Virus record (IMG/VR): IMGVR_UViG_3300009414_001611
Coordinates: 1-34,329 of that record
Reading direction: 5' to 3' (one strand)
From: a virus
DNA: 34,329 bases
The notes under the pieces were generated by a model. The model did no database searches. It saw only the letters and a list, made by a program, of their open reading frames with translations, and was not told where the DNA came from. Numbering within the stretch: position 1 is the stretch's first letter; each line of letters opens with the position of its first letter. Positions 10,778 through 30,713 of this stretch are shown in pieces. The position numbers and the translations under genes were made by a program.

Positions 10778-13700
10778 ATGACTATTTCTTTATCAAAATT
10801 AGCAGCCTTAGAGGCTGCTATAGAGTATCTTGTCAAAGCTACTCCTGGTGAGCAGCTTGAATATCTGTCACCTGGTGAAAAACCTCCTAGTGACACCAAG
10901 ATTCATACTACTGAAAGAGGTGCACAAGGATATTATCCTTCTGAGGTTCTTGATACGAAGATTGAAATTTCTCAGCCTTCTAAAATGTCTCGTCAAGAAT
11001 TTGAAGACAAACGCATTACTCAACAAGAGATGTTGGAGCGTGGTGCTGATGGACATTTGTCTAGTGCAGTTGAGATTGATATTCCTTTAAATTTAATTGA
11101 AGGATTAGAACCTGTTCCTGACATGGAGGGTGGGTATCAGGAAGGTACTCCAGTTACACAGCCTGTTGAGATTAAATACGATGATGGTCAATTTATTCTT
11201 TATGCTGGTAACCATCGGGTCCAACAAGCGAAAGTTAATGGAGATTCCACCATTCCGGCTTTTGTTGAAAATCTTAAATATTCAGATTTAAAAACTGCAT
11301 TTGAACCTCGTTCATTAGAACCTACAGAAGAACGGGAAGTTGAAGTAGTTCAAGCTCCTGAATTACCGAAATCTGGTATAGAACTTGAACGAGATCGACA
11401 ACGTAACCAAGCGACTGAATTAGAGGCTTTGAACCTTGTTAGTCCACAAGATATTACCGATGGTGGTTATAGTAATGTTATTAAAAGGTCTGATGCAAAT
11501 GATTTAGTTGAGCCTAGTCTTTTAAATGAAAATGGGGCTACTGCTGAGAATTTATATGAGAAAGCTAAAGAATTAGGTCTAGATAAAGTTACAGTTTGGC
11601 ATGGTACAACGGGTAAAGGGGCCACTGGTATATTAACTGATGGAGCAGTAGACCCTGCTAAAACTGGTGGGGGATTTGGTGCTGGTTTTAACATGTCTCC
11701 CAAGGCCGCTAGTAGTTGGGCTGGGGGTAAGGCCATTGGACCAGAGTTGCAACATTCAGTTGATAGATTACCGATGATTATTCAATTTGATGTACCAGTG
11801 GAATTATTAAGAGATATTACACATGACCAATCTTCTGATGCTTATTCAATAGAAGACTATCAGGTGAAGATTCCTTTAGATTTAGAAACTACTAAAATTC
11901 TTTATAGTGATGATCCCGACGCTCCCTACCCAAATAAAAGTTTTAATCTGTTAAATGAACATTTTTCTGGTGTCCCTAGAAATCTTTTAAAGCAAGAGAA
12001 GTCTCTTGATCTTAGTGTGACGGTTCCTGATGATTCATCTTTATATGGTGTAAAGGCAGCTGACCATCAATTACGTCAGCCAAATGGGTCTCCTGTGCGT
12101 GGCACTCCTATGTCACTTGATGACCCTAGAATTCCTGAAACTGTTTATCATATGACTACTAATGCTCCAGCAATAAGAGCATCTAAAAAATTAATTGCTG
12201 GGGGTGTTGGAGGATTAGGTGGTGATGCTAGCGACCAGATTATTTCTTTAACGATTAATAAAGAAATTGCGTATCAATTAGCGGAAGACACTAAACTTGC
12301 TTCTGAAATTGGTCGTATGCGGGGTGGAGAGCACAGAACACCTGAACGTGCAGAAGCATCAAAAGCAATACTTAAACGTTTAAATCAAGAGATGGAAAAA
12401 GAGGGCTGGGACAGTAAAATGTTCAGAAACTTCTCCGATGATCCATCTAATGAGTATATGCTTGAGGGTCTTAATGCTAGAGAGTGGTTGAAAGAGTATT
12501 TTAAGGCTAGGGCAAGAGAGACAGATGACGAAAAACGTGATCCGCTGTTTTTCACTGAACCGGAAGATTTAGCTAAAATAAATCCTGAAAATGTGGATGT
12601 AATTGAGATTCCGAAGAATGCTCTCCGTACTGGGGCTATGATTACTGATTTTGATTTAGATAGTCCGTATGGTTTACAAGAGATACGAGTATATGGTGAT
12701 GTAGGTGTTTCGGCTGAAGAGAAGTCTGATAATCTATCTAAACTTCTAGTTCTTGAAGATTATTTATCTAAAGCCACTATGACTACTGATTCCATCCGTA
12801 TTGGTAATCTAGATATTCCAGTTGAAATAGCCACTGATCCTGTTACAGGTCTTTCGTGGCGTGACAGTTTGGCTCCTGGCACTGGAATGCTTTTTGATCT
12901 AGGTGATCACCCAGTCATAACCATGAAGGGCATGAAATTTCCTTTAGATCTTGTTTGGATGGCTGATGGCAGGGTTGTTTATTTAACTGAAAATGCATTA
13001 GTACCTGTTTTAAACCAAGAATCTTTATATATTCCTGAAGCACATGCGACGGCTGTTTTAGAGATTAATGGGGGAGAGGTTCAGCGGTTAGGTATTAAGA
13101 TTGGTGATTTTGTAGAGGGTGGTAATTTTTTGTGGAAACAATCCAACCTTTCTAAATTATTAGTTCTTGAAACTGCTTTAGACTACTTAGTAAAATCTCA
13201 ACCTGGAGAGAAACTTGAGTATTTGTCACCCGGTGAAAAACCTCCGGGTGAAACTCCAATACGTACTACTCCTCGTGGGGCTACGGGATATTACCCTTCT
13301 GAGGTTGTTACGGGAGAGGGAGAAGCTACAGAACCTTCTGAGCTAGAACCGGGGGAAGAAAGAGAGATAGAAGTAGTTCAACCTGAAGAATCTACATCTA
13401 CTAATCTAAATCAACTTCCTTATAAATCTATCGTACAAGCTCAAATAGACAGCAGAGAGCTTTTTGTCCTGCATGATACTGAAGTGGCCCAGAATCATAA
13501 TTATATTTTTAATAATCAGCATACTAAATTAGAACGAGTTTTGGGTTCTGATAGTAAAACATTTTTAGGTTCAGAGATTAAACCAGAACGATTAACTGCG
13601 GATAATTTAGAGAGTGTGGGCTTTACTGATGGTTCTTTAAATGGAATAGATGAAATGGGATCTACAGGTATTAATGCTGCACATAATTATACAGTTAAAG

Positions 13701-14665
13701 TGGATGGTAAGAGATTTATATATAAAACTATGTATGGCGATAATCGTGCTGAGATGTTGAGCTATTCAGTAGATAGAGCACTTGGTCTAAATATAGTGCC
13801 GTATGTTAAATCTCACAGTATTGATGTAGAGAAGTTATACGATAAGTTTCTTGGTACTTGGAACAAGTCTTTTCCTCTTACATCTGGGGGCGAAGAATCT
13901 CTAGAGTGGTTGGACCAAGTTACTAGGTTAAGCCCACATGAGGATCCAAAGAGGGCTGATGCTTATTTAAATGAGTTACATGATGATTTAAATCTAGGTG
14001 GCGGCCACTTTATGGAATTTTGTGAGAATTGTTTAAGTACTAGTGATCGAGATAGGGCCGTTATAGAGATGCTCATGACTGCGGAAGGCAGAGAAGAATT
14101 TATTAAAGTCATGTTATTAGATCTTATTATCGCAAATCCAGATCGACATACAGGTAACTGGATGCTCACTGATGACCATAAAATGATTGCTATTGATAAT
14201 GGTTTAGCTGGTGACGGTGCGGGTATGGAGGGTAATCTAGATAGTTTGGCCGAAGTGAATCCTGGCTCACCTTACAATGATACGAATTTTCAATTTCCTG
14301 ATAAATTAACAATGAGATACTCTAGTGGCCCACTTCTTACGTCTGTGATGGAAGAGAAAGTCGGGGAAGGATGGGATAAAGAAGAATATACTAAAATTAT
14401 GTTAGAAGCCTTTGATCCTGACGTTTTTGGAGAGGAAATTTCAAATGTATTTGATAAATATTTTGATTTCAATAAGTTAAATCCAGTAACAGAGGCTGTT
14501 AATTGGAAAGTATTGCCTATTAAGAAGCAAACTAGGTTTAAAGAAAATTTTGTAGAAAATGTCCAACGTGCTTTTTCTCCGCCTGTTATGGGGTTATTAG
14601 GCAGCTTAATTCCTGGGTATACTAGTCCTTGGTCGGAAAGACTAGCAGACCTAGAGCTTCCATAG
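10778..14665 (+). CDS. Giant mosaic ('polyvalent') protein: ParB-like, ART-like, DUF192, HipA/PI3K-like kinase
   Basis: 1295 residues built from unrelated parts. Residues 5-57 hold the first copy of the shared module. About 95-170 is ParB-like (YAGNHRVQQAKVNGDSTIPA). About 270-375 resembles an ADP-ribosyltransferase (VWHGTTGKG...GAGFNMSPKAASSWA...SIEDYQVKIP). About 455-650 is a second ART-like region (VYHMTTNAPAIRA...YGLQEIRVYG). Residues 652-666 are a partial module. About 669-783 is DUF192 (SLAPGTGMLF...GIKIGDFVEGG). Residues 790-843 are a full module copy. About 970-1200 is a kinase of HipA/PI3-4K type, with K983, E992, D1122-R-H-x-x-N1127 and metal ligand D1140. Start ATG; the upstream 50 nt hold no convincing promoter, only a small TTTCA/TGAAA hairpin. 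It is probably delivered to the host cell (inference). The kinase and DUF192 calls are firmer than the ART calls. Confidence 0.75.
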   Translation: MTISLSKLAALEAAIEYLVKATPGEQLEYLSPGEKPPSDTKIHTTERGAQGYYPSEVLDTKIEISQPSKMSRQEFEDKRITQQEMLERGADGHLSSAVEIDIPLNLIEGLEPVPDMEGGYQEGTPVTQPVEIKYDDGQFILYAGNHRVQQAKVNGDSTIPAFVENLKYSDLKTAFEPRSLEPTEEREVEVVQAPELPKSGIELERDRQRNQATELEALNLVSPQDITDGGYSNVIKRSDANDLVEPSLLNENGATAENLYEKAKELGLDKVTVWHGTTGKGATGILTDGAVDPAKTGGGFGAGFNMSPKAASSWAGGKAIGPELQHSVDRLPMIIQFDVPVELLRDITHDQSSDAYSIEDYQVKIPLDLETTKILYSDDPDAPYPNKSFNLLNEHFSGVPRNLLKQEKSLDLSVTVPDDSSLYGVKAADHQLRQPNGSPVRGTPMSLDDPRIPETVYHMTTNAPAIRASKKLIAGGVGGLGGDASDQIISLTINKEIAYQLAEDTKLASEIGRMRGGEHRTPERAEASKAILKRLNQEMEKEGWDSKMFRNFSDDPSNEYMLEGLNAREWLKEYFKARARETDDEKRDPLFFTEPEDLAKINPENVDVIEIPKNALRTGAMITDFDLDSPYGLQEIRVYGDVGVSAEEKSDNLSKLLVLEDYLSKATMTTDSIRIGNLDIPVEIATDPVTGLSWRDSLAPGTGMLFDLGDHPVITMKGMKFPLDLVWMADGRVVYLTENALVPVLNQESLYIPEAHATAVLEINGGEVQRLGIKIGDFVEGGNFLWKQSNLSKLLVLETALDYLVKSQPGEKLEYLSPGEKPPGETPIRTTPRGATGYYPSEVVTGEGEATEPSELEPGEEREIEVVQPEESTSTNLNQLPYKSIVQAQIDSRELFVLHDTEVAQNHNYIFNNQHTKLERVLGSDSKTFLGSEIKPERLTADNLESVGFTDGSLNGIDEMGSTGINAAHNYTVKVDGKRFIYKTMYGDNRAEMLSYSVDRALGLNIVPYVKSHSIDVEKLYDKFLGTWNKSFPLTSGGEESLEWLDQVTRLSPHEDPKRADAYLNELHDDLNLGGGHFMEFCENCLSTSDRDRAVIEMLMTAEGREEFIKVMLLDLIIANPDRHTGNWMLTDDHKMIAIDNGLAGDGAGMEGNLDSLAEVNPGSPYNDTNFQFPDKLTMRYSSGPLLTSVMEEKVGEGWDKEEYTKIMLEAFDPDVFGEEISNVFDKYFDFNKLNPVTEAVNWKVLPIKKQTRFKENFVENVQRAFSPPVMGLLGSLIPGYTSPWSERLADLELP
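10790..10948 (+). repeat. Shared module, copy 1 (N-terminus of mosaic protein)
   Basis: Encodes residues 5-57: LSKLAALEAAIEYLVK, then TPGEQLEYLSPGEKPP, then TERGAQGYYPSEV. It is the N-terminal copy of a module found again in this gene and in the topoisomerase IB gene. A later EEREVEVVQAPE (about 184-195) corresponds to the tail that follows the other copies. Confidence 0.85.
12731..12775 (+). repeat. Shared module, partial copy 2
   Basis: Encodes NLSKLLVLEDYLSKA (residues 652-666), the helix that opens the module, without the PGE...YYPSEV half. It sits exactly between the second ART-like region and the DUF192 domain, so it marks a domain junction. Confidence 0.7.
13145..13306 (+). repeat. 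Shared module, copy 3 (before the kinase domain)
   Basis: Encodes residues 790-843: NLSKLLVLETALDYLVK, PGEKLEYLSPGEKPPGE and PRGATGYYPSEV. EEREIEVVQPEE follows shortly after. The DNA is close to copy 1 (KLEYLSPGEKPP shared) and to the topoisomerase copy: CTTGAAACTGCTTTAGA is identical at 13166-13182 and 15139-15155. Confidence 0.85.
13921..13950 (+). repeat. 30-nt dispersed repeat, copy A
   Basis: This 30-nt segment matches 25156-25185 at 29 of 30 bases; the single difference is C/G in AGCCCAC versus AGCGCAC. Both copies are read in the same frame and give TRLSPHEDPK here and TRLSAHEDPK in the other gene. Confidence 0.85.
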
Positions 14666-14754: not shown

Positions 14755-16647
14755 GTGGCAGCAGTAACTATATATAAAGATAGTAACTTAGAATATATCG
14801 TCTTGCCCCAACGTAAAGTTCTGGCTAAGACTGAGTATGGAGGCTTACATAATTCTCTAATAGTTACAGAAAAGTCTGCTTTTTGGCAGAATAAAGGACT
14901 ACGAGAGCGTATTAAGAAATCTGGAGATAGATTCTTTAAAATACATTCTAAAGCATTAGATTCTCTTGATATGGGCGTCTCTGGTGATTCTATGTCTGAT
15001 GGGTTTTTCTTATATTTAACCTATAGCAGGTTCCAGAATCAACAATATATAGCATATTTTATTAATGATAAGGAATTAAATCAGTTAACTAAAAGGTCTG
15101 ATATTAAAAAGAGTGGTGATTTAGCTAGATTATTAACTCTTGAAACTGCTTTAGAGTATCTCGTTAAGATGAAACCTGGAGAGAAGCGTGAGTATGGTGA
15201 CGTTCCTCCCAATACACCTTTACATACAGGAAAACGAGGTGGGGGTTTTTATTATCCATCTGAAGTAGGTACCGATATTCCTGAGGTTGATGCAGCTAAA
15301 GAAGATATTCCTATTGGGGAGGAAGTTGAACGTGAAGTAGTAGCCGCCGAAGCTGCTGGAGCGATGATTCCTTGGAGATCATATGCTGAGATGTTGCCTA
15401 CTATAACTAAAGAAGAAGTCAGTAGACAGTTAACAGAGGGTAGGCGTCAGGGATGGGATGGGTCAAGAGATAAGACCCCAGTTACTCCAGGCGTAGTTAT
15501 GCGTGATGATGAGGGCAATATTACCAGCATTTCTACTCCTGATGGTCATATGATATCTGCAAAGGAGATCGATCCTAAAGAACCGGATCGTGGTGGCAAG
15601 TCAGGTTTGGTGATTGCACGTACTGCGGATGCTGAGATACAGGCCCAATGGACTGATTCTCAGGGACATAAACAGGCAACCTATAGCTTTGAACATAATA
15701 AGAAAGCTGCAGGCAAAAAAGATGCTCAAGTAGCTGATTTGGTTGCAGTCCTTCCTAAACTTGAAAAAGCATTGAAGCGGGATATGAAAGATCCTAAACC
15801 TTTAGGTAGGATGAGACTCAATACTATTCGTGAAGCTGCGTTCACGATTGCATTGATACATGATACTTTCCGACGTGTTGGCGGTCCTGCGGGTGCCACA
15901 TTAGTAACTATGGACGGTCAAGAGGGAAGACCTAAAAAGTTGGATAAGGACGGTAAGCCTGTTAGAGGACAGGTTAAAACCTACGGCATTACTACCATGC
16001 TAGGTAGACATGCAAAGGTGACTGGTAATAAAGTAACATTAGATTTCTTAGGTAAGCGTGGTATACGAAATGTAGTCACTGTGTCAGATCCTTCTCTAGC
16101 TAAAGAGTTGATACGCCGTAAGAAAGAGGTCGGTCCTAAGGGCACCCTTCTTAATATTAGTGAGGCTGCGGTAAATTCTTATTTGAAGGGTGTTACGGGA
16201 CGTGATCTCTCCGCTAAAAACTTTCGTACTTATCATGGTACTAGACTTGGACTTGAAGCGTTAGAATCAATCGGTGAAGTGCCTAGCATTAAGAAATCCA
16301 CTTTTGAAGTGGGCATGGTTAACCTAATTAGTAAGGTACAAAAGAAAGGCGGTAAAGACCTTACTGCTGATGAGTGGCGTGATGCTATAGAGTTATATGT
16401 AATTGAGTCTCACAATAAATTTAAGTTGAATTTAATAGGAGAGCCGGTATCTAAACGCTTGGGCAACCAGCCAAAGGTAGCACTAGATGCCTACATCAGT
16501 GATGCTATATTTGAGCAAACTTGGGATCCTAGTTTTTCTACAGAAATGGAAAAATTTATAGAAATACCTAGATTTTCGGCTAAAAAAATCGCTACAATTC
16601 AAGCTAAAATAAAAGAGCAAGCGGCAAAGGCTAGACGTAAAAAATAG
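14755..16647 (+). CDS. DNA topoisomerase IB with long N-terminal extension carrying the shared module
   Basis: 630 residues; bacterial topoisomerases IB are about 350. The C-terminal part has the family pattern: FRRVGG (372-377), YGITTMLGRHAKV (410-422), FLGKRG (K434), VNSYLKGVTGRDLSAKNF (473-490), RTYHGT (R491), then VSKRLGNQPKVALDAYISDA with N571 and nucleophile Y580. Such enzymes relax supercoils through a 3'-phosphotyrosine intermediate. Residues 1-115 are unrecognised. Residues 122-171 carry the shared module (LARLLTLETALEYLVK...GGGFYYPSEV) and then EVEREVVAAEAA. The start is GTG with GGAGAG 7 nt upstream; an in-frame TAA lies one codon before, so no longer start exists. The enzyme probably works on incoming or replicating phage DNA. 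Confidence 0.85.
   Translation: MAAVTIYKDSNLEYIVLPQRKVLAKTEYGGLHNSLIVTEKSAFWQNKGLRERIKKSGDRFFKIHSKALDSLDMGVSGDSMSDGFFLYLTYSRFQNQQYIAYFINDKELNQLTKRSDIKKSGDLARLLTLETALEYLVKMKPGEKREYGDVPPNTPLHTGKRGGGFYYPSEVGTDIPEVDAAKEDIPIGEEVEREVVAAEAAGAMIPWRSYAEMLPTITKEEVSRQLTEGRRQGWDGSRDKTPVTPGVVMRDDEGNITSISTPDGHMISAKEIDPKEPDRGGKSGLVIARTADAEIQAQWTDSQGHKQATYSFEHNKKAAGKKDAQVADLVAVLPKLEKALKRDMKDPKPLGRMRLNTIREAAFTIALIHDTFRRVGGPAGATLVTMDGQEGRPKKLDKDGKPVRGQVKTYGITTMLGRHAKVTGNKVTLDFLGKRGIRNVVTVSDPSLAKELIRRKKEVGPKGTLLNISEAAVNSYLKGVTGRDLSAKNFRTYHGTRLGLEALESIGEVPSIKKSTFEVGMVNLISKVQKKGGKDLTADEWRDAIELYVIESHNKFKLNLIGEPVSKRLGNQPKVALDAYISDAIFEQTWDPSFSTEMEKFIEIPRFSAKKIATIQAKIKEQAAKARRKK
15118..15267 (+). repeat. Shared module, copy 4 (topoisomerase IB protein)
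   Basis: Encodes residues 122-171: DLARLLTLETALEYLVK, MKPGEKREYGDVPPN and KRGGGFYYPSEV. It lies between an unrecognised N-terminal domain and the catalytic topoisomerase. KRSDIKKSGD just before it resembles IKRSDANDLV in the mosaic protein. Confidence 0.85.
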
Positions 16648-19331: not shown

Positions 19332-21207
19332 CGATTCCGATTTTAAAGTTGATGAGTCAGAGTTAGGCTTAGAATCACCGGAGAGTATATTTGAGACTAC
19401 TCCAGTGGATTTAGAGTCATTTCTCTATAAGCCCGAATATTTAAATTTATCTATGCGTCTATCTTCACATCAATTGAGGTTTGTTGACGCTTTATCTGAT
19501 ATTTTTAATGAAAAACAATATACTGAGGGTGTTCTTATGGCTGGACAGGGATCCGGTAAGGACACCTGTTCTATTTTAATTGGGTTAAGAATTATTTACT
19601 TATTACAGTGTCTTAGTAGCCCTCAACGTTATTTTGGCATGGATAAAAATAGCTTTATTGATTCCATCAATGTAGCCCAAAATGCCGATATAGCTCGGAA
19701 TATTTATTTTAGTACATTGTCTAATATTCTTCGTAGCTCTCCTCTTTTCCAAGCTGATTCTGGTCCTCAATCTATCGCCTGTCGCATTACTCAGCAAGCG
19801 GTTACTTTCCCCAAAAATATACGTTTGATTTCAGGTAACTCTGAAAATGAATCGTGGCAGGGATACACTCCAATTCTAGTAATTCTAGATGAGATTGATG
19901 CATTTAAGAGTGAGCAAGAGTTACAACGTAGCCATTCTTTGCGGAGTGAGGGAGCGGAAGGCGTATATAATACGGCTAAAGCACTAGTACAATCTAGGTT
20001 TCCGGGTCTAGGTAAGATCATTAGTCTGTCATGGCCACGGTTTAAAGGTTCATTTATTCAACGTCGGTTTGCCAATGGTAAGATGGAAAATAATACTTTT
20101 GTGGCGTGTAAAGAAAATGGGGACCCTTATGCTACATGGGAATTCAATCCATCAAAGAAAGAGATAGATTTTGCTGACTTCTATGCTACTGACCCAACTT
20201 TAGCCAAAGCTAGATTTGAATGTGATCCTCCCTATGCTCGTGATGCGTATATTAAAGATCCGCTACCTATTTTACGAACATTCGATGCTGAAATCGATAG
20301 TGTCGGTCAGATTGTGTGGGGCGGTTTAAAAGAGATACGTGATGAATCAAGCTTAATGCTTGGGGTTAAGTATTTTATTCATGTTGATTTAGGTCTAAGA
20401 CATTCTAATGCTGCTGTATGTATAGCTCATCAGGGCTTAGAGCATGTAGAAATTGATTTAATTAAAGTTTGGGAACCACAAGTTGACCAAGATGTAGATT
20501 TTGGTGCCATTGAGCATTTTATCATCTCGTTACGAGATAAAGGTTTTAGAGTAGTTAATGTTACATATGATAACTATCAATCGGTTAACTCTCTACAAAC
20601 ATTAGCCAAACATGGTATTTCAGCTAAATATAAATCTATTGGTAGAGGGAGCCGAGAAGCTTACGATACGTTTAAAGATTTACTTTATCAGGAAAAAATT
20701 GATGGATATTTTGATAAAGAGACTATAGCTGAAATTTTGGCCTTAGATATAGTTTATGGAGATAAAATTGAAGCTCGACCTGGTATGAAAAAAGATCGAG
20801 CTGATGCCGTTGTAGGTGCGGTTCATGGTGTCTTAAAGGATCATGGAGTAGTTACAGGCATGCAAGCAATGCCCGGAATAAACTCTTTATTTGAAAATCC
20901 AGGTGCAGCTGAGCAGGATCAAAATAAATCACGAAATCCTTTACAGTCTACTTCTGGTACCGGTTGGGGACGAGATGCAGTAAAAGAGCGAATTGTTAGC
21001 AGTAGTTCCGATACATGTATTGTATGTCATAGGATTGGTGGTATAGAATATACTGATGAATTAGGAAATAGAGTATTTGAAGATGGTAACGCATTTAAAA
21101 AGATTTGTTTAGTTTGCAGCTCTAGGTGGTCTAGGTCAGACGGTGGGTGGTCTACTCTTAATCCACCTGATGAATACGCATTGACTGATATCATAGGAAG
21201 GTCTTAA
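19255..21207 (+). CDS. Terminase large subunit
   Basis: 650-residue packaging ATPase/nuclease. Walker A is GQGSGKDT (97-104) and Walker B with catalytic Glu is LVILDEID (208-215). The RNase H-like nuclease has D378 (HVDLGLRHSN), D439 (VTYDNYQS) and the final KKDRADAVVGA (D514/D517). Beyond the nuclease is a C-terminal extension with C588-I-V-C591 and C618-L-V-C621, a likely zinc knuckle not usual for TerL. The start at 19255 overlaps the small subunit by 77 nt. An ATG at 19312 would overlap by 20 nt and is a serious alternative, since residues 1-19 look like shadow coding. Confidence 0.93.
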   Translation: MKKPSNGSAPGWLPSVDFTMLGLGLNDSDFKVDESELGLESPESIFETTPVDLESFLYKPEYLNLSMRLSSHQLRFVDALSDIFNEKQYTEGVLMAGQGSGKDTCSILIGLRIIYLLQCLSSPQRYFGMDKNSFIDSINVAQNADIARNIYFSTLSNILRSSPLFQADSGPQSIACRITQQAVTFPKNIRLISGNSENESWQGYTPILVILDEIDAFKSEQELQRSHSLRSEGAEGVYNTAKALVQSRFPGLGKIISLSWPRFKGSFIQRRFANGKMENNTFVACKENGDPYATWEFNPSKKEIDFADFYATDPTLAKARFECDPPYARDAYIKDPLPILRTFDAEIDSVGQIVWGGLKEIRDESSLMLGVKYFIHVDLGLRHSNAAVCIAHQGLEHVEIDLIKVWEPQVDQDVDFGAIEHFIISLRDKGFRVVNVTYDNYQSVNSLQTLAKHGISAKYKSIGRGSREAYDTFKDLLYQEKIDGYFDKETIAEILALDIVYGDKIEARPGMKKDRADAVVGAVHGVLKDHGVVTGMQAMPGINSLFENPGAAEQDQNKSRNPLQSTSGTGWGRDAVKERIVSSSSDTCIVCHRIGGIEYTDELGNRVFEDGNAFKKICLVCSSRWSRSDGGWSTLNPPDEYALTDIIGRS

Positions 21208-23114
21208 TGGGATTTGTTGATTCCTTGGCCAGTGCTCTGTCTAATAGGGGCCGAGATGGCTCCGTCGCATCAGCTAGCGACGCCATTGCATTGACTAGTA
21301 CAGCAACTGAGAATCTAGGTAATTACCAGAGGGTTAATGGACTTCTGGGAACTTTAGATTCTTTGGTTAAGTCTGCGGAGACGGCTCAAGGTGCTACAGG
21401 ACGGATGGCACCTCTAGGTCTTGATGCGATTATTCAGGACTGGGTTCGTCAACAATTCATTTATCGTCGTAGTATTCTTCAAGATTTATATGTTCTTGCT
21501 TATCAAGTTACAGAAATTCGATCTGTTGTGCTGGCGATTCTACGGGAAGTGTTTAGAAAAGGTTTTGCCCCGTGGCGTCAAAAGTTTATGCGTAAATGTG
21601 TTCAGTGCGGCAAAGAATTTGAAGAAGAAGACGATGAACATTGTGATACTTGTTTTGTTTTTGAGATTGTAGAACAAGAAGTTTATGATGCACATGATGA
21701 TGAGATAAGACTTAAAAAAATCAGAAAATATAAAAGAGATGCCTCTGGACAGAAGATTCCAGTTAAGACTGAAGTTCCTGATTTTGCGCAGCAGAATGGT
21801 TTTGACGAGTTGCTGTCTAGTGCCAATAGCTTCCATCAGACTTTGTTAGATGTCCTTCATGAATTTATGACGGATATTCTTATTGCCGATGATGGTTTCT
21901 TATTGCTAAACAAAGAGTATAAAATTGATCCAATCAGCGGTAAAATTTTAAAACAAAAGATATTTGAGATTACTCGATTGCATCCAGCTCTAACTGAGTA
22001 TGATATTGATCGTAAAGATGGATTGCCTGAGCGATCTCACTTTTTGTGCCCGATCCATAGAGAACAACAAACTCATACATCGCCCGGCAATTGTGATGTA
22101 ATCGTGCCTGAAGGATTCAGGTGTAACAGTATATTACTTCCTGCCATGTATCGATATTATTGGCGTGGTCGTTATCGTTATTATCTGGCTGATGAGATTT
22201 GTCACGCTTCTTTCTTTAATCCTTCCAAGACTTATGGCTATTCACCTGTTCTAACTGTGTTTGAAAAGGTTCTAGCAATAGTTGGCGCAGATAGGACGTT
22301 GTATAGATATTGGTACGAGCGTCGTATTCCACCAGGGTTAATAATTACCTATACGGATGATCCTGAATCCCTTGAACAAGAAATTGAACGGGTTAAAACT
22401 CAAATGTTGAATGACCCGAATACTTTCCCATGGGTTGCGGCATCCGCTAGAAATAACCGTGGCAAGACTGACTTTATTAAGTTAGCGTACACGTTCCAAG
22501 AATTGGACTACCTACCTGTTAGGCAAGAGATTCGTGACCGTGTAGCTATGCTATGGGGCGTAACACCCCTGTTTACGGGTGATGCTAATAGTGTTGGCGG
22601 TTTAACTAGAGAAACAGCTCAAACTGCTATGCATGACAGTTTAATTGAGTCCTATCAAAATGTTATTAATAGAAATATTATGCCTCACTTGTTAAAACAG
22701 CTCAATGTGTCTGATTGGGAGATGGAATTAGTTCCTCCTAAGGAGGAAACTGAAGAGATAAGTCTGGGTGTTGAAAAGCAACGTATTGAAAATGCGTTGC
22801 AAATGATGCAATTAGGCTATGAACCCGTCAAAGAAAAGGGCAAAGAGATTAGATTTAAGTTTAAAAAGGCGGAGCAAGCACCTGGTATGCCAGGGGCACC
22901 AGGCCAACTAGGCATGCCACAGCCAGCAATGGCAGGAGGAGCACAGCCAGCAATGGCTGAAGGTCAACCTCCCGCAACAGGTGGAGGAATGCCAGCTGAT
23001 GTGAATCAACTTCCAACTCCGCCGCCTATTGAAGGACCAGAAGCTAATGCTAGTGGAGAAATTGACCCATCTGAAGATGATGAGGTTAATGCTAGTGGAG
23101 ATATACGGCCATGA
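21207..23114 (+). CDS. Portal protein with inserted zinc ribbon
   Basis: 635 residues, following TerL with a one-base TAATG overlap. The central part (about 330-500) has portal features: YGYSPVLTVFEKVLAI, then a stem helix, then FIKLAYTFQELDYLPVRQEI and WGVTPLFTGDANSVGGLTRE. These match the 'clip/wing to crown' segment of SPP1/lambda-class portals. Unusually, C131-V-Q-C134 and C146-D-T-C149 form a zinc ribbon inserted after the N-terminal helices. A second Cys/His group (CPIH...C...C) lies near 280-310. The tail from about 560 is Pro/Gly/Ala-rich and repetitive (GMPGAPGQLGMPQPAMAGG), probably disordered. It forms the dodecameric DNA gate. Confidence 0.85.
   Translation: MGFVDSLASALSNRGRDGSVASASDAIALTSTATENLGNYQRVNGLLGTLDSLVKSAETAQGATGRMAPLGLDAIIQDWVRQQFIYRRSILQDLYVLAYQVTEIRSVVLAILREVFRKGFAPWRQKFMRKCVQCGKEFEEEDDEHCDTCFVFEIVEQEVYDAHDDEIRLKKIRKYKRDASGQKIPVKTEVPDFAQQNGFDELLSSANSFHQTLLDVLHEFMTDILIADDGFLLLNKEYKIDPISGKILKQKIFEITRLHPALTEYDIDRKDGLPERSHFLCPIHREQQTHTSPGNCDVIVPEGFRCNSILLPAMYRYYWRGRYRYYLADEICHASFFNPSKTYGYSPVLTVFEKVLAIVGADRTLYRYWYERRIPPGLIITYTDDPESLEQEIERVKTQMLNDPNTFPWVAASARNNRGKTDFIKLAYTFQELDYLPVRQEIRDRVAMLWGVTPLFTGDANSVGGLTRETAQTAMHDSLIESYQNVINRNIMPHLLKQLNVSDWEMELVPPKEETEEISLGVEKQRIENALQMMQLGYEPVKEKGKEIRFKFKKAEQAPGMPGAPGQLGMPQPAMAGGAQPAMAEGQPPATGGGMPADVNQLPTPPPIEGPEANASGEIDPSEDDEVNASGDIRP
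22917..23107 (+). repeat. Low-complexity repeats in the portal C-terminus
   Basis: Short direct repeats: CACAGCCAGCAATGGC occurs twice near 22919 and 22942, encoding QPAMAGG/QPAMAEG. TAATGCTAGTGGAGA occurs near 23045 and 23087, encoding NASGEID/NASGDIR. They give a Pro/Ala/Gly then acidic tail, likely grown by slippage. Confidence 0.6.
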
Positions 23115-25258
23115 CGCTAAAGCAAGAGCGTAAATATAATATCATTCTAAATAGGATCGATTATTACCTTAAACAGGCTGATGATTGGGCCTCTGTCGAT
23201 GATTTAGATGACCTTATCTTGGCTGTATCTCCCACGTTTTACTTTAAAGATGTTTCAGATAGCACTATTTCTATGTTTAATGTGAGCGGTGATATCGCTC
23301 ATGATTATTTATATCTCCAGATGCCGGAGAGTGTAACTGCTTGGGATTCTGCTCAACAAGCTGAGGAATCTGGTGTTTTTGCTGACCATATTAAAACGGT
23401 TGACAAACTAAATCGTCTTGGAGATGGCCTATTTCCTGATCAGAAAGACGGGGACCCAGTTAGTTCGAATACTAGAGAAGCTGCAGAGCAGATTAAGAAT
23501 GCTTTAATTACTGGTAGTGACTATCTAGATTATAGTAAAGATGACCTTTTTCCTAAAGAGGGAGTTCTTTTACACGATGATCAAGCCGGTGCAATTCGTA
23601 TTCAACGTGTTGATTCGAAGGATCCCAGCAAAGGCTATAACGTATTTCGCAATAACGCTAGTGTAGAGGGTGGTAAGTATTCTAAAGTTGCCCCATGGTC
23701 TGATAATGATCGTACCCAATTAAATAGTGATCCTATTACTAATTATTCAGAGGCTTATCAAGCTTCTAAAAAAGCACTGATTGCTGGCGGTATGGATGAA
23801 AGTGCAAAGCCGAATGTTAGTTTAGGACTTGGAGCAACACTTAGCCGACAGCGGATTCAGAGGGCAGCATTTAAAGATAGTGGAATTTGGGATGCCGCTG
23901 TTAAAAAAGGTGGCTCAGTTAGCTATAAAACCTTATATGCGTCTAGAGATGGATTAAATCGAAGAAAGGCTATTTTTGAAGCTATTAATCGCTTTTCAGA
24001 TCGCACAAAAGCAGGGTTTAAAGAGGGATATGATGCTGCAAAAAAGAGCATGCACGGTGCGAAGCCAGAAGGTTGGTTGTATAGAAAGAACCGACAGGTA
24101 TATTGGGAAGAGCGGGCTAACTTAGCTACTGAATATGCTCAAGGTAACGCTGAATATGATAGATTAAATGCTCTTGCTGATGGAATGGAAGGTAATGAAA
24201 AAGCAAAGGCTAAACAAGCTGCTTGGGATAAGTGGCAAGAAACTGTCAAAAGTGTAACTGAGCAGGCTGAGTATATTGGTGCTACCTTTGATAATGTTCA
24301 AGAACATGTTGAAAAAATAAAAGCAGGGTCTAAAACTATTCTGCCTCCTGCTGATGGGTGGCCAGATGCTTATGGCGGGGCTAAGAGAGTTAAAGCTCTT
24401 CAACGTAATCTAGCATATTTCAAGTTAGACCGTTATGGATCAATTCAATATACTCTACCTGGAGTCCCACAAAAGCCATCACAGGCACCACAGTCAGAAG
24501 CTGCTCCTGCTGAAGGTGCTGCCGAAGATGGACAACCGGCTCCTGTTGAAGAACAAGGAGCGTTTCCTGCTGGCCTAATGCGAGGGGAAGGTAAAGTTCA
24601 ACCTGTTGCTGGTACGCCTGAGCCTAGTACTGGACCTGGGCCTCAAATATCAGGTAAAGGAAATGGTGGTGGGACTGGAGCAGATGTACCTTCTAACCAG
24701 CGTGAGTATGCAACGAGTGCGCCTTATGGCCTTCCATTGCATCATGGTAAGTCTCGTGGTGAAGGTAAAATTTCATCATTTTATGATAAACGAGCTGCTA
24801 GGCAAGCTAAAGCCGCAATGGCAGAAAGAACTGGTCTTGTTGTCCCAGGAGTTGGAGCAAGTGAAAATCAACCTGGATATGGACAGGCAGTTGGTGCGCT
24901 TCAAGAAGAAGGACGTGCAATAGCTGCTGCTGGAGAAAATGAAATGGCTGAACCAATAAATGATTACAAACAAGCTGCTGAAGAAGAAGAGGCTAAGGCC
25001 AAACGTTCACAGGCTAAATCCAAGATTCGCACTGCAAGAGCAAATGCGAGGATGGCTAAAGCTAAGGCCAATGAAGCAGAAGCCAAGGCTAAGCGATCAG
25101 AAGCGGATTCTGGTGTTCATATAGCTGATATTTTAGCTAAATTAGATAATCGTATTACTAGGTTAAGCGCACATGAGGATCCAAAAATTTCTTTAGTGCT
25201 ATCTAAGCTGGACGGTACGATTAAGTCTATAAATAAAGTCGCAGCGTTAAAGAAATAG
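23111..25258 (+). CDS. Hypothetical protein after the portal, helical with low-complexity linkers
   Basis: 715 residues with an ATGA overlap to the portal gene. The N-terminal helix (LKQERKYNIILNRIDYYLKQ) is followed by a mixed region. About 170-440 looks globular (GYNVFRNNASVEGGKYSKVA; GWLYRKNRQVYWEERANLAT). About 455-560 is a Pro/Ala/Gly-rich linker. About 610-670 is an Ala/Lys/Glu coiled coil (NARMAKAKANEAEAKAKRSE). The C-terminus has TRLSAHEDPK, encoded by the repeat at 25156-25185, and then a helix like the shared module (LVLSKLDGTIKSIN). A head-internal, scaffold-like or head-completion protein is plausible from position; no family was recognised. Confidence 0.6.
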   Translation: MTLKQERKYNIILNRIDYYLKQADDWASVDDLDDLILAVSPTFYFKDVSDSTISMFNVSGDIAHDYLYLQMPESVTAWDSAQQAEESGVFADHIKTVDKLNRLGDGLFPDQKDGDPVSSNTREAAEQIKNALITGSDYLDYSKDDLFPKEGVLLHDDQAGAIRIQRVDSKDPSKGYNVFRNNASVEGGKYSKVAPWSDNDRTQLNSDPITNYSEAYQASKKALIAGGMDESAKPNVSLGLGATLSRQRIQRAAFKDSGIWDAAVKKGGSVSYKTLYASRDGLNRRKAIFEAINRFSDRTKAGFKEGYDAAKKSMHGAKPEGWLYRKNRQVYWEERANLATEYAQGNAEYDRLNALADGMEGNEKAKAKQAAWDKWQETVKSVTEQAEYIGATFDNVQEHVEKIKAGSKTILPPADGWPDAYGGAKRVKALQRNLAYFKLDRYGSIQYTLPGVPQKPSQAPQSEAAPAEGAAEDGQPAPVEEQGAFPAGLMRGEGKVQPVAGTPEPSTGPGPQISGKGNGGGTGADVPSNQREYATSAPYGLPLHHGKSRGEGKISSFYDKRAARQAKAAMAERTGLVVPGVGASENQPGYGQAVGALQEEGRAIAAAGENEMAEPINDYKQAAEEEEAKAKRSQAKSKIRTARANARMAKAKANEAEAKAKRSEADSGVHIADILAKLDNRITRLSAHEDPKISLVLSKLDGTIKSINKVAALKK
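25156..25185 (+). repeat. 30-nt dispersed repeat, copy B
   Basis: 29 of 30 bases match 13921-13950, and it is read in the same frame (TRLSAHEDPK). It lies near the 3' end of the gene after the portal. Confidence 0.85.
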
Positions 25259-25273
25259 TTCGTGGGGTAATTT

Positions 25274-27427
25274 ATGTCTGTTACTTCTGTAATTGATAGG
25301 CTTGATGAATTAGTTGTCCAAACGGAGATAGCTGACTTAGCTAAGCTTGCTAACGGTTTATTGGAAAAAGCACCTAAAGGTGAGATTGCGGCAGGACATC
25401 GCCGTTATCCTCATTTAGTTCCTATGTATAGGACTGTTCATCGCACTAAGCCTCGTCCTATGGTACTTCGTGCTATACGTTGGGTTAATCCTAAAAGGAT
25501 GATGCCTGGGGCCGGTCTTACAAGAGAAGAAATGGAGAAGATGTCTAAGGAGGAGCTATCTGATTTAATCGTTAAATTAAATGATTATCGTGGTGAAGCT
25601 CACGTTATTCACAATCGTTACAATCAAATGATTGATATGATTGATGCAGGCCAGCTTCCTTATTATATTCCTTATATAGGTGTGAATAAAGATAAGTGGA
25701 TGTCTTTGCAGGATCACATGGATCGTGCTGTGCGTTTGAAAGAGGGTACTAAAAATTGGGAATCCGCTCTTGACCATCAAGCTTTAGAAATTAGAGAGAT
25801 TCTTAATAAGAAGCATGATACTAAATTAGATGATATTGACGGGTTATGGGTAGATGCTAAAGGTAACCCAGCTGCTCCTAACTTTCTAGATGTTAAACAA
25901 GCTCAGGAAGCGAAAAAATTTCTTAGAGTGCAACGTTTATCTCCAGACGGTACACGGTTACTACTTGCTCCTAAGATATACGCTCGTCGTTTTATTGCCG
26001 TCCCACAGGCAGAAATACGTGCAGGAGAATCAGTCCGTATGCCTGCTGGGGGACAATTACGTAGGCCACGTGATCCAAGAGCGAGAGCATGGTTTGATGA
26101 ACATGGTGGAGCCGCAGCTCATTTAATGCGTGTTCCTAGAGGATTTGGTGGAGGTACTGAAGATCCACGATTACGTCAACGTGGTCAACTTATCAGTTTT
26201 CCCGCTGGTCGTGAAAATCCTAACATTTTGACATTTGGTGAAGTTAGTGATAGCGATGTAGCTAATCGTAGAGAAGAACGATGGACACATCGTGGTCTAG
26301 CCCCTCATAGAGGGGCAGCTTCTCGTGGTAGGCAAGGTAGTATTCCTCAAGAAGGTCCTGCTCCTCATGGCAGAGAGGATCTTGGTGAGCGTGGGGAGCA
26401 GATACGTCCAAGAGGCAGGCAACGTGATGGCCGTGGGATGGCGGATATTGAGCAAGGTATTCGTCGTGTGCAACGGCAACGAGCACAACAGCGACAGGGA
26501 GCGGGTCAGGGAGCTGATCTTGGCGTTGTTCGACCAGAAGCTATTGCAGCTAATGAAGCCTTCAATAAGGCTGCGGCTAATGTGTTTGCAGCTAATGGCA
26601 TAAATACTTCTGAATTAGACGCTATGAGAGCTATTAAAGAGGATGATATTGACCAAATCTTTCCTTTAGGTGGAGGAGTTAATAGATCAGCTACATATCA
26701 AATGCGGTTGCATGATGGTCGAAGATTTGTTTTTAAAGTTGTAGTAAATGAGCAAAAAGCTGAACTATTTGCTAATGTTATAGATAATATACTTGATTTA
26801 AATACACAGGCTCCCACAGTTATTGCTCCTGGTATGGATGTTATTTCAAATGCGTTTATTGCTGATCAGGGTATAGCACTACGTAATTTTGCAGAGGCCA
26901 GACACCAAGGTGGAGGGCACCTCCAAAAGTTTTGTGAGCCTAATTGTAAGGAATGGTCTAGGTTAGACTCTAACCGTAGACGAGAATTAGCAGCAAATGA
27001 GAATTTTAGAAACGAATATCACAGAAATGTTTTGTTAGATTTTATTGGCGGCAACTGGGATCGGCACGGTAGTAATTTTATGGTCTCAGAAGATGGTCAT
27101 TTTGTTGGCATAGATAATGGTTTCCATATCGATGTTGCTAGACTACTAAAACCTCAGTTTAGTAAGAGTGAGATAGAAAATAGAGGAACTATGTTTTCTA
27201 TAGCACACAAGGGTATTAATCAAGGTGGCAGGAGTCCTTTGAAGGGGTATGGTCCCGCTGGACTTGATATAGATGAGGAACTTGGTTCTGTATTTGACCG
27301 ACATTTTGACCTAGGTAAAATTAATGATGTTCAGCGTGAATTTGGCATGGCCAATAGGATGGAAGGACGGGATCACGACTATATTAAAGCTGAATTTATA
27401 GCTGCAGCTCGTAAATTATGGCGTTAG
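25274..27427 (+). CDS. Second HipA/PI3K-like kinase-domain protein with RG-rich region
   Basis: 717 residues with GGGG six nt before the ATG. The N-terminus (LAKLANGLLEKAPKGEIAAG, then VHR...LRAIRWVNP at about 57-76) shares motifs with the nucleotidyltransferase protein (VHR...RARTAWVNP). About 250-420 is very rich in Arg, Gly and Gln (RPRGRQRDGRG), likely disordered and nucleic-acid binding. The C-terminal kinase has K488 (FVFKVVV), E497 (KAELFA), GGGHLQKFCE, D596-R-H-x-x-N601 and D614 (GIDNGF). These line up with the kinase of the mosaic protein. It would phosphorylate a protein or lipid-like substrate; the target is unknown. A perfect 7-bp hairpin GCCCCTC-ATA-GAGGGGC lies inside the gene at 26300-26316. 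Confidence 0.78.
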   Translation: MSVTSVIDRLDELVVQTEIADLAKLANGLLEKAPKGEIAAGHRRYPHLVPMYRTVHRTKPRPMVLRAIRWVNPKRMMPGAGLTREEMEKMSKEELSDLIVKLNDYRGEAHVIHNRYNQMIDMIDAGQLPYYIPYIGVNKDKWMSLQDHMDRAVRLKEGTKNWESALDHQALEIREILNKKHDTKLDDIDGLWVDAKGNPAAPNFLDVKQAQEAKKFLRVQRLSPDGTRLLLAPKIYARRFIAVPQAEIRAGESVRMPAGGQLRRPRDPRARAWFDEHGGAAAHLMRVPRGFGGGTEDPRLRQRGQLISFPAGRENPNILTFGEVSDSDVANRREERWTHRGLAPHRGAASRGRQGSIPQEGPAPHGREDLGERGEQIRPRGRQRDGRGMADIEQGIRRVQRQRAQQRQGAGQGADLGVVRPEAIAANEAFNKAAANVFAANGINTSELDAMRAIKEDDIDQIFPLGGGVNRSATYQMRLHDGRRFVFKVVVNEQKAELFANVIDNILDLNTQAPTVIAPGMDVISNAFIADQGIALRNFAEARHQGGGHLQKFCEPNCKEWSRLDSNRRRELAANENFRNEYHRNVLLDFIGGNWDRHGSNFMVSEDGHFVGIDNGFHIDVARLLKPQFSKSEIENRGTMFSIAHKGINQGGRSPLKGYGPAGLDIDEELGSVFDRHFDLGKINDVQREFGMANRMEGRDHDYIKAEFIAAARKLWR

Positions 27428-27495: not shown

Positions 27496-27801
27496 ATGAC
27501 AAATGTATGGATTTTAACTAATGCAGCTAGCGAAGACCCGGATGATTGGAAAACTAAGATTGCAGCAGTAGTACTTCCTAATAAGAAAGTAATTTCAAAA
27601 TACGAAGACTATATTGATTTGTTGACTCAACAAATCAAAGAAGCGCAAGAATTTTGGGAAGAAGACGGTAATACTGGTCTGGCAGATATTGAAATAATAT
27701 ATGAATATCTAGATGCGTTGCATACTAGTCCATATCATCTAGGTGGAGTAGTTTCCATAGAAGAGGCTAAAGAATATGTTAAACTAAGCGGTGGAATTTA
27801 A
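27496..27801 (+). CDS. Hypothetical protein
   Basis: 101 residues with a strong ribosome-binding site (AGGAG, 9 nt before the ATG), first gene after the promoter at 27436. The sequence looks like a small alpha/beta protein (WILTNAASEDPDDWKTKIAA, then DYIDLLTQQIKEAQEFWEED) with strong acidic character. Its stop overlaps the next start (TAATG). No family was recognised. Confidence 0.65.
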   Translation: MTNVWILTNAASEDPDDWKTKIAAVVLPNKKVISKYEDYIDLLTQQIKEAQEFWEEDGNTGLADIEIIYEYLDALHTSPYHLGGVVSIEEAKEYVKLSGGI

Positions 27802-28205
27802 TGTCTGACGATTTATTGATTAAAGCAGAAGAAGCCGATGCTGATGAAGATGAAAAAGAAGAGGATAAATACCCTGAGATTTGGTTCATCTTTGATGGGG
27901 TAGGCACATACTTGGGCCAAGTTGCTAAAAATGCGACGGGTAATTTTCACGCTCAAATTACTAAAGATGAGCGTAATGAATATTTTGATGAAATGTTTAC
28001 ATTTTTACGTCCGTTGGGGTCTAAAGGCATAGAATCATCCGCAAGTGTTTTAATAGTAGATGTGGATAAGGAGGAAGCTTTAGATGCTATAACGGGTGCT
28101 GGGTTTATGGCAAAGAAGGCTACTGGTAAAGATCACGATGAATTGATACGGGAATTAGATAAACTACAAACTGTTAAAGGTGGGGAGAGTAAGAAATACA
28201 AATGA
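27801..28205 (+). CDS. Acidic hypothetical protein
   Basis: 134 residues. It opens with an acidic stretch (EEADADEDEKEEDKYPE, about 9-25). A small mixed domain follows (WFIFDGVGTYLGQVAKNA; ASVLIVDVDKEEALDAITGA), then a charged helical tail. It is coupled to the genes on both sides (TAATG, ATGA). No family was recognised. Confidence 0.62.
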   Translation: MSDDLLIKAEEADADEDEKEEDKYPEIWFIFDGVGTYLGQVAKNATGNFHAQITKDERNEYFDEMFTFLRPLGSKGIESSASVLIVDVDKEEALDAITGAGFMAKKATGKDHDELIRELDKLQTVKGGESKKYK

Positions 28206-28369
28206 TAGCTAAACTAATGGACAAAATTCGACCTCAAGCATTTATTGCGGTGGTGATTCTGGGCGGCGTTGCGGCATATGCAATGTACATGACACAAAGT
28301 GAGATAGCTGCTGGTGCGACTGGTGGTATCGTGGCTCTGGTAAAGGACATCATTCAGACTGATAAGTGA
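28202..28369 (+). CDS. Tiny membrane protein (55 residues), paralogue of 33275-33460
   Basis: Starts at an ATG overlapping the previous stop (ATGA) and ends TGA at 28367-28369. Basic N-terminus (MIAKLMDKIRPQ), one clear hydrophobic helix (AFIAVVILGGVAAYAMYM, 13-30) and a second amphipathic or weak helix (IAAGATGGIVALVKDII). The 61-residue protein at 33275 has the same plan: (K/R)IRPQ, helix, T/S-E-I, GGI. Size, two helices and charged ends are compatible with a holin or other small phage membrane protein, but no lysis enzyme was found nearby. Confidence 0.6.
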   Translation: MIAKLMDKIRPQAFIAVVILGGVAAYAMYMTQSEIAAGATGGIVALVKDIIQTDK

Positions 28370-28370
28370 T

Positions 28371-30713
28371 ATGTCCATACTTTCTGATCCAAATAAAATA
28401 TTATTACAGATAGACTATGTTCTATCTAAGCAAGCTGCTCAACAGTTACCTAATGTTGAAATTGAGCGGGAAGCTCCACTTGTCGGTCCTGAGGCTGAAA
28501 AATTTAAGTTCGAAGATAAGCCAGTGTCTGAACAAGCTGGAGAATCTCCCACTGGAAAAGTTAGAACTAAGATTTATGAGTTAGTCCACCGTGGTGGTCG
28601 TACTTTTGAAAGAGCCAGAACTGCTTGGGTAAATCCTGATGTCGCCAAGAACCTTGAGCAACGAAAGCGAGCCTCAGATTGGATTAGAACTTTAGGTAAC
28701 TATCTTCCTATCTATTTTGTAGGTGGGTATGTTAGAGATAAATTCTTTAAAAAGATTTCTAAAGATATTGACTTAGTTACGTTAACTTCATTAGATGAAG
28801 CTAAAAACATACTGAATTCCATAAATATACCTTTTAAGGAAAGCCATAATTCTCATGCTAGACTTAAATTTGAAGTCGGTGGCATGAATGTAGACCTTAT
28901 ATCTACAACTCCAGATGAGTTATTAAATAACCTACGTAATAGGGATTTTACTATCAATGCTATTGCCCAGTCTGTGACTGGGCAATTTTACGATCCTACT
29001 CGTGGCATGGAAGATATTAAATTAAAGTGGTTGAGATCTCCCAATAATGATAGTAATAAATCCTTTAAAGCGGATCCGATTAGAATTCTTAGAGCTGCTA
29101 GATTTTTAGCAGATTTTCCAATTAAGCCGCATGGAACCTTATTAAAAGGATTAAAAGAGACTTCTGATGTTTTATCGAAATCAAAAAAACATCGTATAGG
29201 ATTGGAATTATTTAAGATTCTACAGACTGAAAAGCCTTGGATAGCTATGCAATTTCTAGCTGATAATGGTCAGTTAAAGCATATTGCTGCTGATCTAGCT
29301 AAAGAGATTGGATTTAAACAGATCGGATCAGAACGTAAACACACCGATGTGTGGCAACATACTGTAGCAGCTTTGAAAAATGCTAATAGTGATGATGCCA
29401 TTTTAAATCTAGCCATACTCTGTCATGATATCGGTAAACCTCAGACGGCAACGGAGAAAAATAGGCATTTTCCTGGACATGATAAAAAAGGCTCAGAGAT
29501 TACTACGGCTTTATTGAAGGATTTAGGGTATTCTCAAGATTTAGTGAAACGAATATCCAATATGGTCTTACACCATCTGTTCCTAACTAAGGTTGGCTTA
29601 GAGGGTACAGATGAACAATATCAGAAAGTAGTTCTAACCTTGGGCGGCGACATCGATCGTTTTTTCAAACTTATGAAAGCTGACGGCGAAGACCACAAAG
29701 TTAGAGATGAAGCGTTACTTGATAAGGTTGAAAAACGTATGAGACGAATTAAAGCTGATAAGCCTGAACAAGCTGGTAAGAAGACTTTAAGTAAGTCCCA
29801 ATCTGTAAATTTATTAGATTTTTCTATAGATATTCTTCTTCAAGATGAATCGACTCAAGATGAAGGCCGTCAGTATGATCCTGAAGGTTTTCATGTTGGA
29901 CCACGGCACGGTAAATACTTTAAACCGGGTGAACGTGAGGCTGGTGGTAAAGAGGTTGAAATAGTCCAAGCTCCTGAAGCTGCACCCGAAGAAGATAAAT
30001 GGGCTGCATGGAGAAAAAAGACTGAAGGATTTATTCAAGGCTTACTTGACCCTGAATCGGGTACAGGATTTTTTGGTAGTTTTAAAACTAAACAGGTTAG
30101 GATTCCTTGGGAAGATGATAATAGAAAGCAAGATCCTAATGGTCATGTAAAAAGAGTGATGATTAGTGGTAAGCAACATGCTTTGCTTTTTGATAATCTT
30201 GAGAAATTATATAAGTCTAAATATCGCAAAAATCATATGCCAGTTGGACCTGGCGGCGGTGGTTACAAGCAACGTGCGGGTTTTGACGGTAGTCTTTTTG
30301 GTGGAGATGAGCGTCAAAAATTTAGGCTAGAACAATTTCCTAATGGGGCTGCTAATCTTGAACTATGGGATGGCACTAGACAAGAGGCTGGTGTAGGTAA
30401 AAAGGCGCAGGAAGCAGAACAAGTAAAAGAACAAGCACGAGATGAGGACCCATTGACCGATCATTTTGGTGGTGAAGTCCCACAGGTTCTTATACAAAAT
30501 TGGATGACAGATTTTATGAAAGTTCCTGGTAGAGTGCCTGATGCAGGAACCATCGTAGAAATGGGAAAATATTTAGCATCTAAACAAACAAAAACCATAC
30601 CAAAAGAATTTGCAACTCGATTAGGGGATTTGTCACAGTATTTAGATATTGAAAAATCCCAAGCAGTAGCCTATTTAGAAGAAATGTTAGAACTAGTTGG
30701 CGATAATGCCTAA
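28371..30713 (+). CDS. CCA-adding-type nucleotidyltransferase with HD domain and module-like extension
   Basis: 780 residues. About 1-100 is an extension with VHR...RARTAWVNP, also found in the kinase protein at 25274. The polymerase-beta-like head has GGYVRD (118-123), DID (132-134), RNRDFTINA (189-197) and DPIRILRAARF (235-245). The Glu normally before this last motif is Ala234, while D235 and R238, which read the incoming base in class II CCA enzymes, are kept. An HD phosphohydrolase domain follows (H330, H352-D353, HFPGHD). Residues 478-536 resemble the shared module (SVNLLDFSIDILLQ...GPRHGKYFKPGER...EVEIVQAPE). The last 240 residues are unrecognised. Likely repairs tRNA 3' ends; a poly(A) polymerase is the alternative. 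Confidence 0.82.
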   Translation: MSILSDPNKILLQIDYVLSKQAAQQLPNVEIEREAPLVGPEAEKFKFEDKPVSEQAGESPTGKVRTKIYELVHRGGRTFERARTAWVNPDVAKNLEQRKRASDWIRTLGNYLPIYFVGGYVRDKFFKKISKDIDLVTLTSLDEAKNILNSINIPFKESHNSHARLKFEVGGMNVDLISTTPDELLNNLRNRDFTINAIAQSVTGQFYDPTRGMEDIKLKWLRSPNNDSNKSFKADPIRILRAARFLADFPIKPHGTLLKGLKETSDVLSKSKKHRIGLELFKILQTEKPWIAMQFLADNGQLKHIAADLAKEIGFKQIGSERKHTDVWQHTVAALKNANSDDAILNLAILCHDIGKPQTATEKNRHFPGHDKKGSEITTALLKDLGYSQDLVKRISNMVLHHLFLTKVGLEGTDEQYQKVVLTLGGDIDRFFKLMKADGEDHKVRDEALLDKVEKRMRRIKADKPEQAGKKTLSKSQSVNLLDFSIDILLQDESTQDEGRQYDPEGFHVGPRHGKYFKPGEREAGGKEVEIVQAPEAAPEEDKWAAWRKKTEGFIQGLLDPESGTGFFGSFKTKQVRIPWEDDNRKQDPNGHVKRVMISGKQHALLFDNLEKLYKSKYRKNHMPVGPGGGGYKQRAGFDGSLFGGDERQKFRLEQFPNGAANLELWDGTRQEAGVGKKAQEAEQVKEQARDEDPLTDHFGGEVPQVLIQNWMTDFMKVPGRVPDAGTIVEMGKYLASKQTKTIPKEFATRLGDLSQYLDIEKSQAVAYLEEMLELVGDNA
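29802..29978 (+). repeat. Shared module, diverged copy 5 (nucleotidyltransferase protein)
   Basis: Encodes residues 478-536: SVNLLDFSIDILLQ, GFHVGPRHGKYFKPGER and GKEVEIVQAPE. The order (helix, then P-R-G/H-x-Y/F, then EVxVVQAPE) matches the clear copies. The VVQAPE end is nearly identical to that of the mosaic protein at the DNA level (CAAGCTCCTGAA). The first half is much diverged. Confidence 0.55.

Follow-up and report, generated by a model that had tools for sequence, protein, structure and literature searches.

A repeated protein module on unrelated enzymes of viruses with one head type, a candidate head-assembly docking tag

For T4 (IPIII) and P1 (N-terminal part of DarB) it is established that short sequences target proteins to the capsid, and in both phages a short protein element of this type suffices for the uptake of foreign proteins into the head (PMC9024508). 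In P1, the available text of PMC12810830 further describes DarA and Hdf as capsid-bound internal head proteins that are required to package other anti-restriction proteins. Polyvalent proteins, finally, are mosaics in which ParB-like, ART, peptidase and further effector domains are combined; their genes lie near portal, MuF and head genes, and it is a common prediction that these proteins are packaged and injected (Iyer et al., 2017, PMC5512222).

The module described here, which comprises about 55 residues and a short tail, may by analogy work like the T4 and P1 targeting sequences and like polyvalent proteins. A preliminary description of this DNA had drawn the T4 analogy, which stands as a functional likeness only: the T4 and P1 sequences are N-terminal, whereas the module is larger, apparently folded, repeated within proteins, found in distant viruses and, although several copies are N-terminal, mostly internal. 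As most copies are not N-terminal and the sufficiency of the module is only presumed by analogy, we do not claim membership among the capsid-targeting sequences, and we know of no sequence match between the module and a described one. With polyvalent proteins the module-bearing proteins share the combination of several effector or enzyme domains, unrelated to each other, within a single polypeptide (a weak ParB-like domain, DUF192 and a PI3K-like domain in the window) and the location of their genes with portal, terminase and head genes (five records, permutation P = 5e-5). They differ in that TopoIB, CCA, DUF192 and PI3K-like cargos recur in the module viruses and in that the accessible portions of PMC5512222 describe no polyvalent protein with a repeated dedicated module common to a head protease or portal. 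The docking proposed below would resemble the hub-and-client scheme of DarA/Hdf, a likeness by description and not by sequence, and unlike for the module, no repeated tag is described for the P1 system in the available text of PMC12810830. In the Druskaviridae (HVTV-1 gp113-gp116, HCTV-1 gp109), which have the same portal and capsid families, a homologous beta unit stands beside zeta/ART domains, between portal and protease; there, the 18-residue helix that is conserved in the marine lineage cannot be recognised, and gp115 is annotated only as a zeta toxin.

The window, i.e. the whole stretch of DNA analysed, is a viral record of 34,329 bases from IMG/VR, and the same virus is present on two more contigs with 100% identity across the compared proteins. 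Its genes run in the order primase-like, PolA-like, RecA-like, RNR, mosaic protein, topoisomerase IB, ThyX, terminase, portal, post-portal proteins and CCA-type enzyme, where names without Pfam or PHROG support were assigned by reading the sequences. The genes of relevance here are the following.

10778..14665, + strand: mosaic (polyvalent) protein, 1295 aa
14755..16647, + strand: topoisomerase IB protein (Pfam Topoisom_I, 2e-14)
21207..23114, + strand: portal protein (PHROG portal, 2e-45), marker of the module-linked head type
23111..25258, + strand: protein directly after the portal, with a diverged module second half
28371..30713, + strand: CCA-type nucleotidyltransferase with HD domain (Pfam PolyA_pol 4e-13, HD 3e-7)

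The mosaic protein consists of module A, a ParB-like domain (PHROG 1.4e-3, weak), a module tail, an uncharacterised region (195-393), a region that is also present in the viruses G005 and G022 (394-646), a half module, DUF192 (Pfam 5e-16), module B and a PI3/4-kinase-like domain (Pfam PI3_PI4_kinase 1.3e-5, below cut-off). In the topoisomerase IB protein, an N-terminal domain of about 118 aa is followed by the module and then by the TopoIB core, in which blocks with R, K, R and Y are invariant in four relatives; we take these residues to have the catalytic roles. The C-terminal extension of the CCA-type protein is lineage-specific and starts with a module. The cargo kinase of the mosaic protein has a homologue (1.2e-16) in the kinase-like domain of the second post-portal protein (25274-27427), which bears no module. 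As side observations, the RecA-like gene (window 5000-5962) and a DnaX-like gene of a sister virus (G003:90192-91331) look bacterial, and the cultured members of the portal clade infect archaea. Further, the RNR, ThyX and large terminase genes of the sister virus G005 each appear to bear an intein (L036:14645-17974, L037:3979-5901 and L037:7459-10569; Intein_splicing or Hint with LAGLIDADG or HNH), and the window orthologues are uninterrupted.

Module copies and parts of copies were located as follows (E values for copies A, B and the topoisomerase IB copy are those of the leave-window-out profile).

10790..10948, + strand: module copy A at the mosaic N-terminus (residues 5-57; helix and beta unit), E = 2.4e-26
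11330..11362, + strand: stand-alone tail EREVEVVQAPE (mosaic residues 185-195), after the ParB-like domain
12731..12778, + strand: half module, helix only (mosaic residues 652-667), before DUF192; alone not significant, E = 3.6
13145..13306, + strand: module copy B (mosaic residues 790-843), before the kinase-like domain, E = 1.4e-25
13358..13387, + strand: tail of copy B, EREIEVVQPE (mosaic residues 861-870)
15118..15267, + strand: module of the topoisomerase IB protein (residues 122-171), E = 8.6e-20
24680-24847, + strand: diverged module second half in the post-portal protein (residues 524-579), E = 1.8 in the window
29802..29984, + strand: diverged module of the CCA-type protein (residues 478-538; GPRHGKYF and EVEIVQAPE), match to G004|13485-14744
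31419..31481, + strand: GPREGKF-type copy (residues 105-125) in a 197-aa ORF (31107-31700), G008-copy profile, E = 2.7e-6

The repetition reported in the preliminary description is thus real: besides three full copies, the window contains a diverged one and several that are incomplete, and the full copies lie where that description had placed them in the mosaic protein (5-57 and 790-843) and the topoisomerase IB protein (122-171). A profile of sister-virus sequences only, none from the window, recovered the full copies; in shuffled proteomes the best match reached E = 0.002 to 5. For the half copy noted at mosaic residues 652-666 the helix is indeed present, but taken alone it stays at chance level. 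The diverged copy reported at residues 478-536 of the CCA-type protein is uncertain by profile (1.7e-3), yet it is real: residues 498-537 match G004|13485-14744, an otherwise unrelated protein, with 72.5% identity over 40 aa (E = 5e-13), and the similarity ends at the module boundary, which is direct evidence for one module on two cargos. The GPREGKF-type copy and the post-portal half module are additions to the earlier list, and the latter is recovered in the sister viruses G004 (4.9e-9), G008 (7.9e-5), G005 (1.3e-4) and G003 (1.3e-3). In the mosaic protein, the ParB-like domain is placed as if it had been inserted between the beta unit of copy A and its tail.

The module is composed of a predicted helix, a three-stranded beta unit and an acidic linker with EEREIEVVQAPE at its end. 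Across 21 aligned copies from the window and its sister viruses, L, L, L and K are invariant in the helix and Y, P, R and Y in the beta unit, for which the consensus is [RK]xY[LIV]xPGExxPEGVxVxxGxRGGxYY, followed by the variable acidic linker and then EEREI-VVQAPE. From this alignment AlphaFold2 predicts a helix at positions 3-22 and short strands at 30-32, 45-46 and 52-54 (block pLDDT 83-93), with a disordered tail. A model of the whole topoisomerase protein, which was based on four sequences only, was discarded (mean pLDDT 63.6, module mostly <50). No relative was found in the PDB by sequence or by a fold search with the model, and in a Pfam search of the module-bearing proteins the module itself remained unmatched. 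PHROG 24083 (length 1233, unknown function) matches three module proteins, with the alignment covering the module in at least two of them.

The copies are homologous and are conserved at the protein level. Within a genome they share 31-73% of their residues, and only about 40-65% of the codons of identical residues are the same. As codons differ at roughly half of the identical residues, the copies must be old and their similarity maintained by selection on the protein, and the codon divergence rules out recent duplication or gene conversion as its source.

The domains carried next to modules include TopoIB, CCA/PolyA_pol with HD, DUF192, PI3K-like, ParB-like and HNH domains and, in addition, a DRAT-type ART, NUDIX with PAP2, an SNF2 helicase and zeta with ART. 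In G008, both CCA and TopoIB lie behind a module of a type unlike that of the main lineage. The sister viruses G021 and G023 differ by one whole enzyme cassette: residues 1-208 of the former match 1-205 of the latter with 88% identity and residues 129-523 match 669-1063 with 97.5%, so that G021 is without the cassette that lies between the two modules of G023. At the DNA level, G021 is like the first G023 copy up to a point within residues 131-190 and like the second one from there on, which places the junction inside the module. At the same locus, DUF192 is a short free-standing protein in G007 (L019, G007:12332-12748) and G009 (L021, G009:5396-5782), which suggests that the mosaic may have grown around DUF192 by cassette addition.

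One could imagine that the module is a tolerated spacer that has no recruiting role and was spread by domain shuffling between copies, as would fit the junction inside the module in G021/G023 and the same variant module ahead of different cargo in the window and in G004. However, residues were kept while synonymous codons diverged, the sequence is conserved even among viruses that are only distant relatives and occurs with a single head type, and the module is also present in a protease and in a portal fusion, such that we regard this explanation as improbable. A second alternative starts from the conserved R-G-G-x-Y-Y with its basic residues and from the cargos that act on DNA or RNA (TopoIB, ParB-like, HNH, CCA), and takes the RGG-aromatic beta unit to be a DNA-binding element that holds the enzymes on the packaged genome, so that both would be ejected together. 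Given that each copy has a single RGG, that several copies have RGA or PSG instead and that such a tether leaves the restriction to one head type unexplained, we consider it very improbable.

This restriction is apparent from the distribution of the module. The profile search gave 40 matches, with 15 of 16 viral records positive. Besides the window, no fewer than nine viral records have relatives of the module, as do HVTV-1 and HCTV-1, two cultured viruses of Haloarcula. The latter two are among the Druskaviridae of Haloarcula that are the only cultured relatives of the portal in the phage collection, and among its 50,697 records the module is found only in Druskaviridae. HVTV-1 gp115 carries RVYVDSPDEAPEGVQVQQGDRGGLWYPSE ahead of its zeta domain, and there are two module copies in HVTV-1 gp116 and one in HCTV-1 gp109. 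A profile made from marine sequences only matches gp115 (3e-6), gp116 (4e-6) and HCTV-1 gp109 (5e-5), and in the reverse search the halovirus profile matches marine copies at 1e-6. A DNA pattern of the module core matched 20 stretches in IMG/VR, 18 of which (overlapping and sister contigs included) are in-frame motifs of the module type; with a pattern for the first half of the beta unit, ten stretches with 11 matches were obtained, some in known records, and all 11 continue with G-x-x-G-G-x-[FYG]-Y.

Occurrence in bacterial proteins unrelated to heads, which the preliminary description had named as speaking against its proposal, was also looked for, and none of the cellular genomes searched was positive. 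In about 85,000 cellular species genomes the core pattern gave 34 matches that we attribute to chance, as none of them reaches the aromatic pair with an upstream R-x-Y, and many resemble out-of-frame ORFs. The module profile had no match in 293 genomes from the phylum of an archaeal MAG or in 299 from the phylum of a Tateyamaria, and a search of 72,556 plasmids was equally negative. Weak matches in Pseudomonas phage B3 and in Erwinia phages (E >= 2) were taken as chance. Three viral contigs outside the module family (L152, L157 and L159) contain GPRGGRYY and, after it, a second strand-like stretch (NGNKTYI in L152).

All module records of sufficient length encode a portal of the window type or a capsid protein of the G003/HVTV-1 type, and the same applies to each of G010 to G018 and to both haloviruses. 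Clustering of module genes around head genes was found across five long records (permutation P = 5e-5), where the mean distance to a gene for portal, protease, capsid or terminase is 3.6 kb. The mosaic genes of the window family have RNR on one side and ThyX on the other and precede the terminase by about 5 kb. The module is further carried by head proteins themselves, namely by the head-maturation protease proteins of G010 (protease 41-201, modules 228-257 and 749-778) and G011 (module 180-207, protease 901-1073) and by a fusion in G016, in which it stands between portal and MuF in one polypeptide. The module helix is not a generic targeting helix of head proteins, since its profile matches module copies only and none of the scaffold and capsid proteins compared has it.

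That head-type proteases are present, two of which bear the module, brings up the possibility that the copies are processing sites, at which the head-maturation protease would cut polyproteins into separate enzymes inside the prohead. T4-like and SPN3US-like phages cleave internal head proteins (PMC10052503), the module tail is predicted to be disordered, and the copies do lie at domain junctions, roughly one per enzyme, as stated when processing was first suggested for this DNA. However, the analysis found no cut-site motif in common with a capsid protein, and the tail EREIEVVQAPE as a candidate for such a site had no match in capsid, portal or scaffold candidates. Moreover, the conserved core is predicted to be folded and many module proteins have a single copy, sometimes at the very N-terminus, and we therefore find processing an unlikely role.

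From our point of view, the reading with the better prospects is that the module is a head-assembly docking tag on exchangeable enzyme cassettes in viruses with a Druskaviridae-like portal/capsid system. Taken together, a docking role best explains why the module is limited to one head type, why its genes are linked to head genes and why proteases and a portal fusion carry copies. That the module directs enzymes into the head, as proposed in the preliminary description, is likewise the best-supported form of that proposal because the module is found in one head type, near head genes and in no cellular genome searched; most likely it helps to load its carrier proteins into the virus head. The capsid-targeting step, the binding to a prohead component, the presence in virions and the ejection are parts that we infer. 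The protease and portal-MuF copies suggest general head-assembly docking rather than a pure cargo tag. As such, the module would be an autonomously folding docking domain with an amphipathic helix, a beta unit and a disordered acidic tail, through which its carriers, i.e. some head proteins as well as enzymes destined for the incoming genome or the host, would be recruited into or onto the prohead via a common head component. Packaged enzymes would represent most of its clients, and those located inside would be released together with the DNA. As copies would be interchangeable, recombination inside the module could add, remove or swap cassettes of module plus enzyme, which would account for the mosaic proteins.

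Several observations count against the docking tag. Some proteins have two or three modules, where one tag per polypeptide should suffice, and the mosaic genes adjoin RNR and ThyX, which makes late expression a weak point. The kinase-like post-portal protein represents a cargo-type domain that has no module, no module was recognised in the fragments G007 and G009, in which the portal is of the same type, and no scaffold or capsid protein shares the module helix.

In a broader form, which we put forward tentatively and with some doubt, a single docking domain would be common to tailed viruses of haloarchaeal and marine hosts, so that any enzyme joined to it would become part of the head and would then be delivered along with the genome. 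Cassettes would be exchanged through recombination within this domain, and head protease and portal would use it in organising assembly. If true, the module would offer a sequence handle by which proteins carried inside heads could be recognised across a large group of viruses, most of them uncultured, as well as a testable loading signal in cultured haloviruses, and it would account for the assembly of polyvalent proteins out of exchangeable cassettes.

Two further observations concern the haloviruses. A second repeated linker, EWVSDPTEQAPNRWTHTETGEHRYQETKPG, is found within and between large proteins of HVTV-1 (gp115, L041:26102-30043) and HCTV-1 (gp107 and gp109, L042), and is possibly another tag comparable to the module. 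Lastly, an ARGPxG...ADGxIH stretch is present in both the protease and the capsid protein of HVTV-1 (L041:31413-34715), in the N-terminal part of the capsid protein and after the catalytic part of the protease, and is possibly a maturation cut site.
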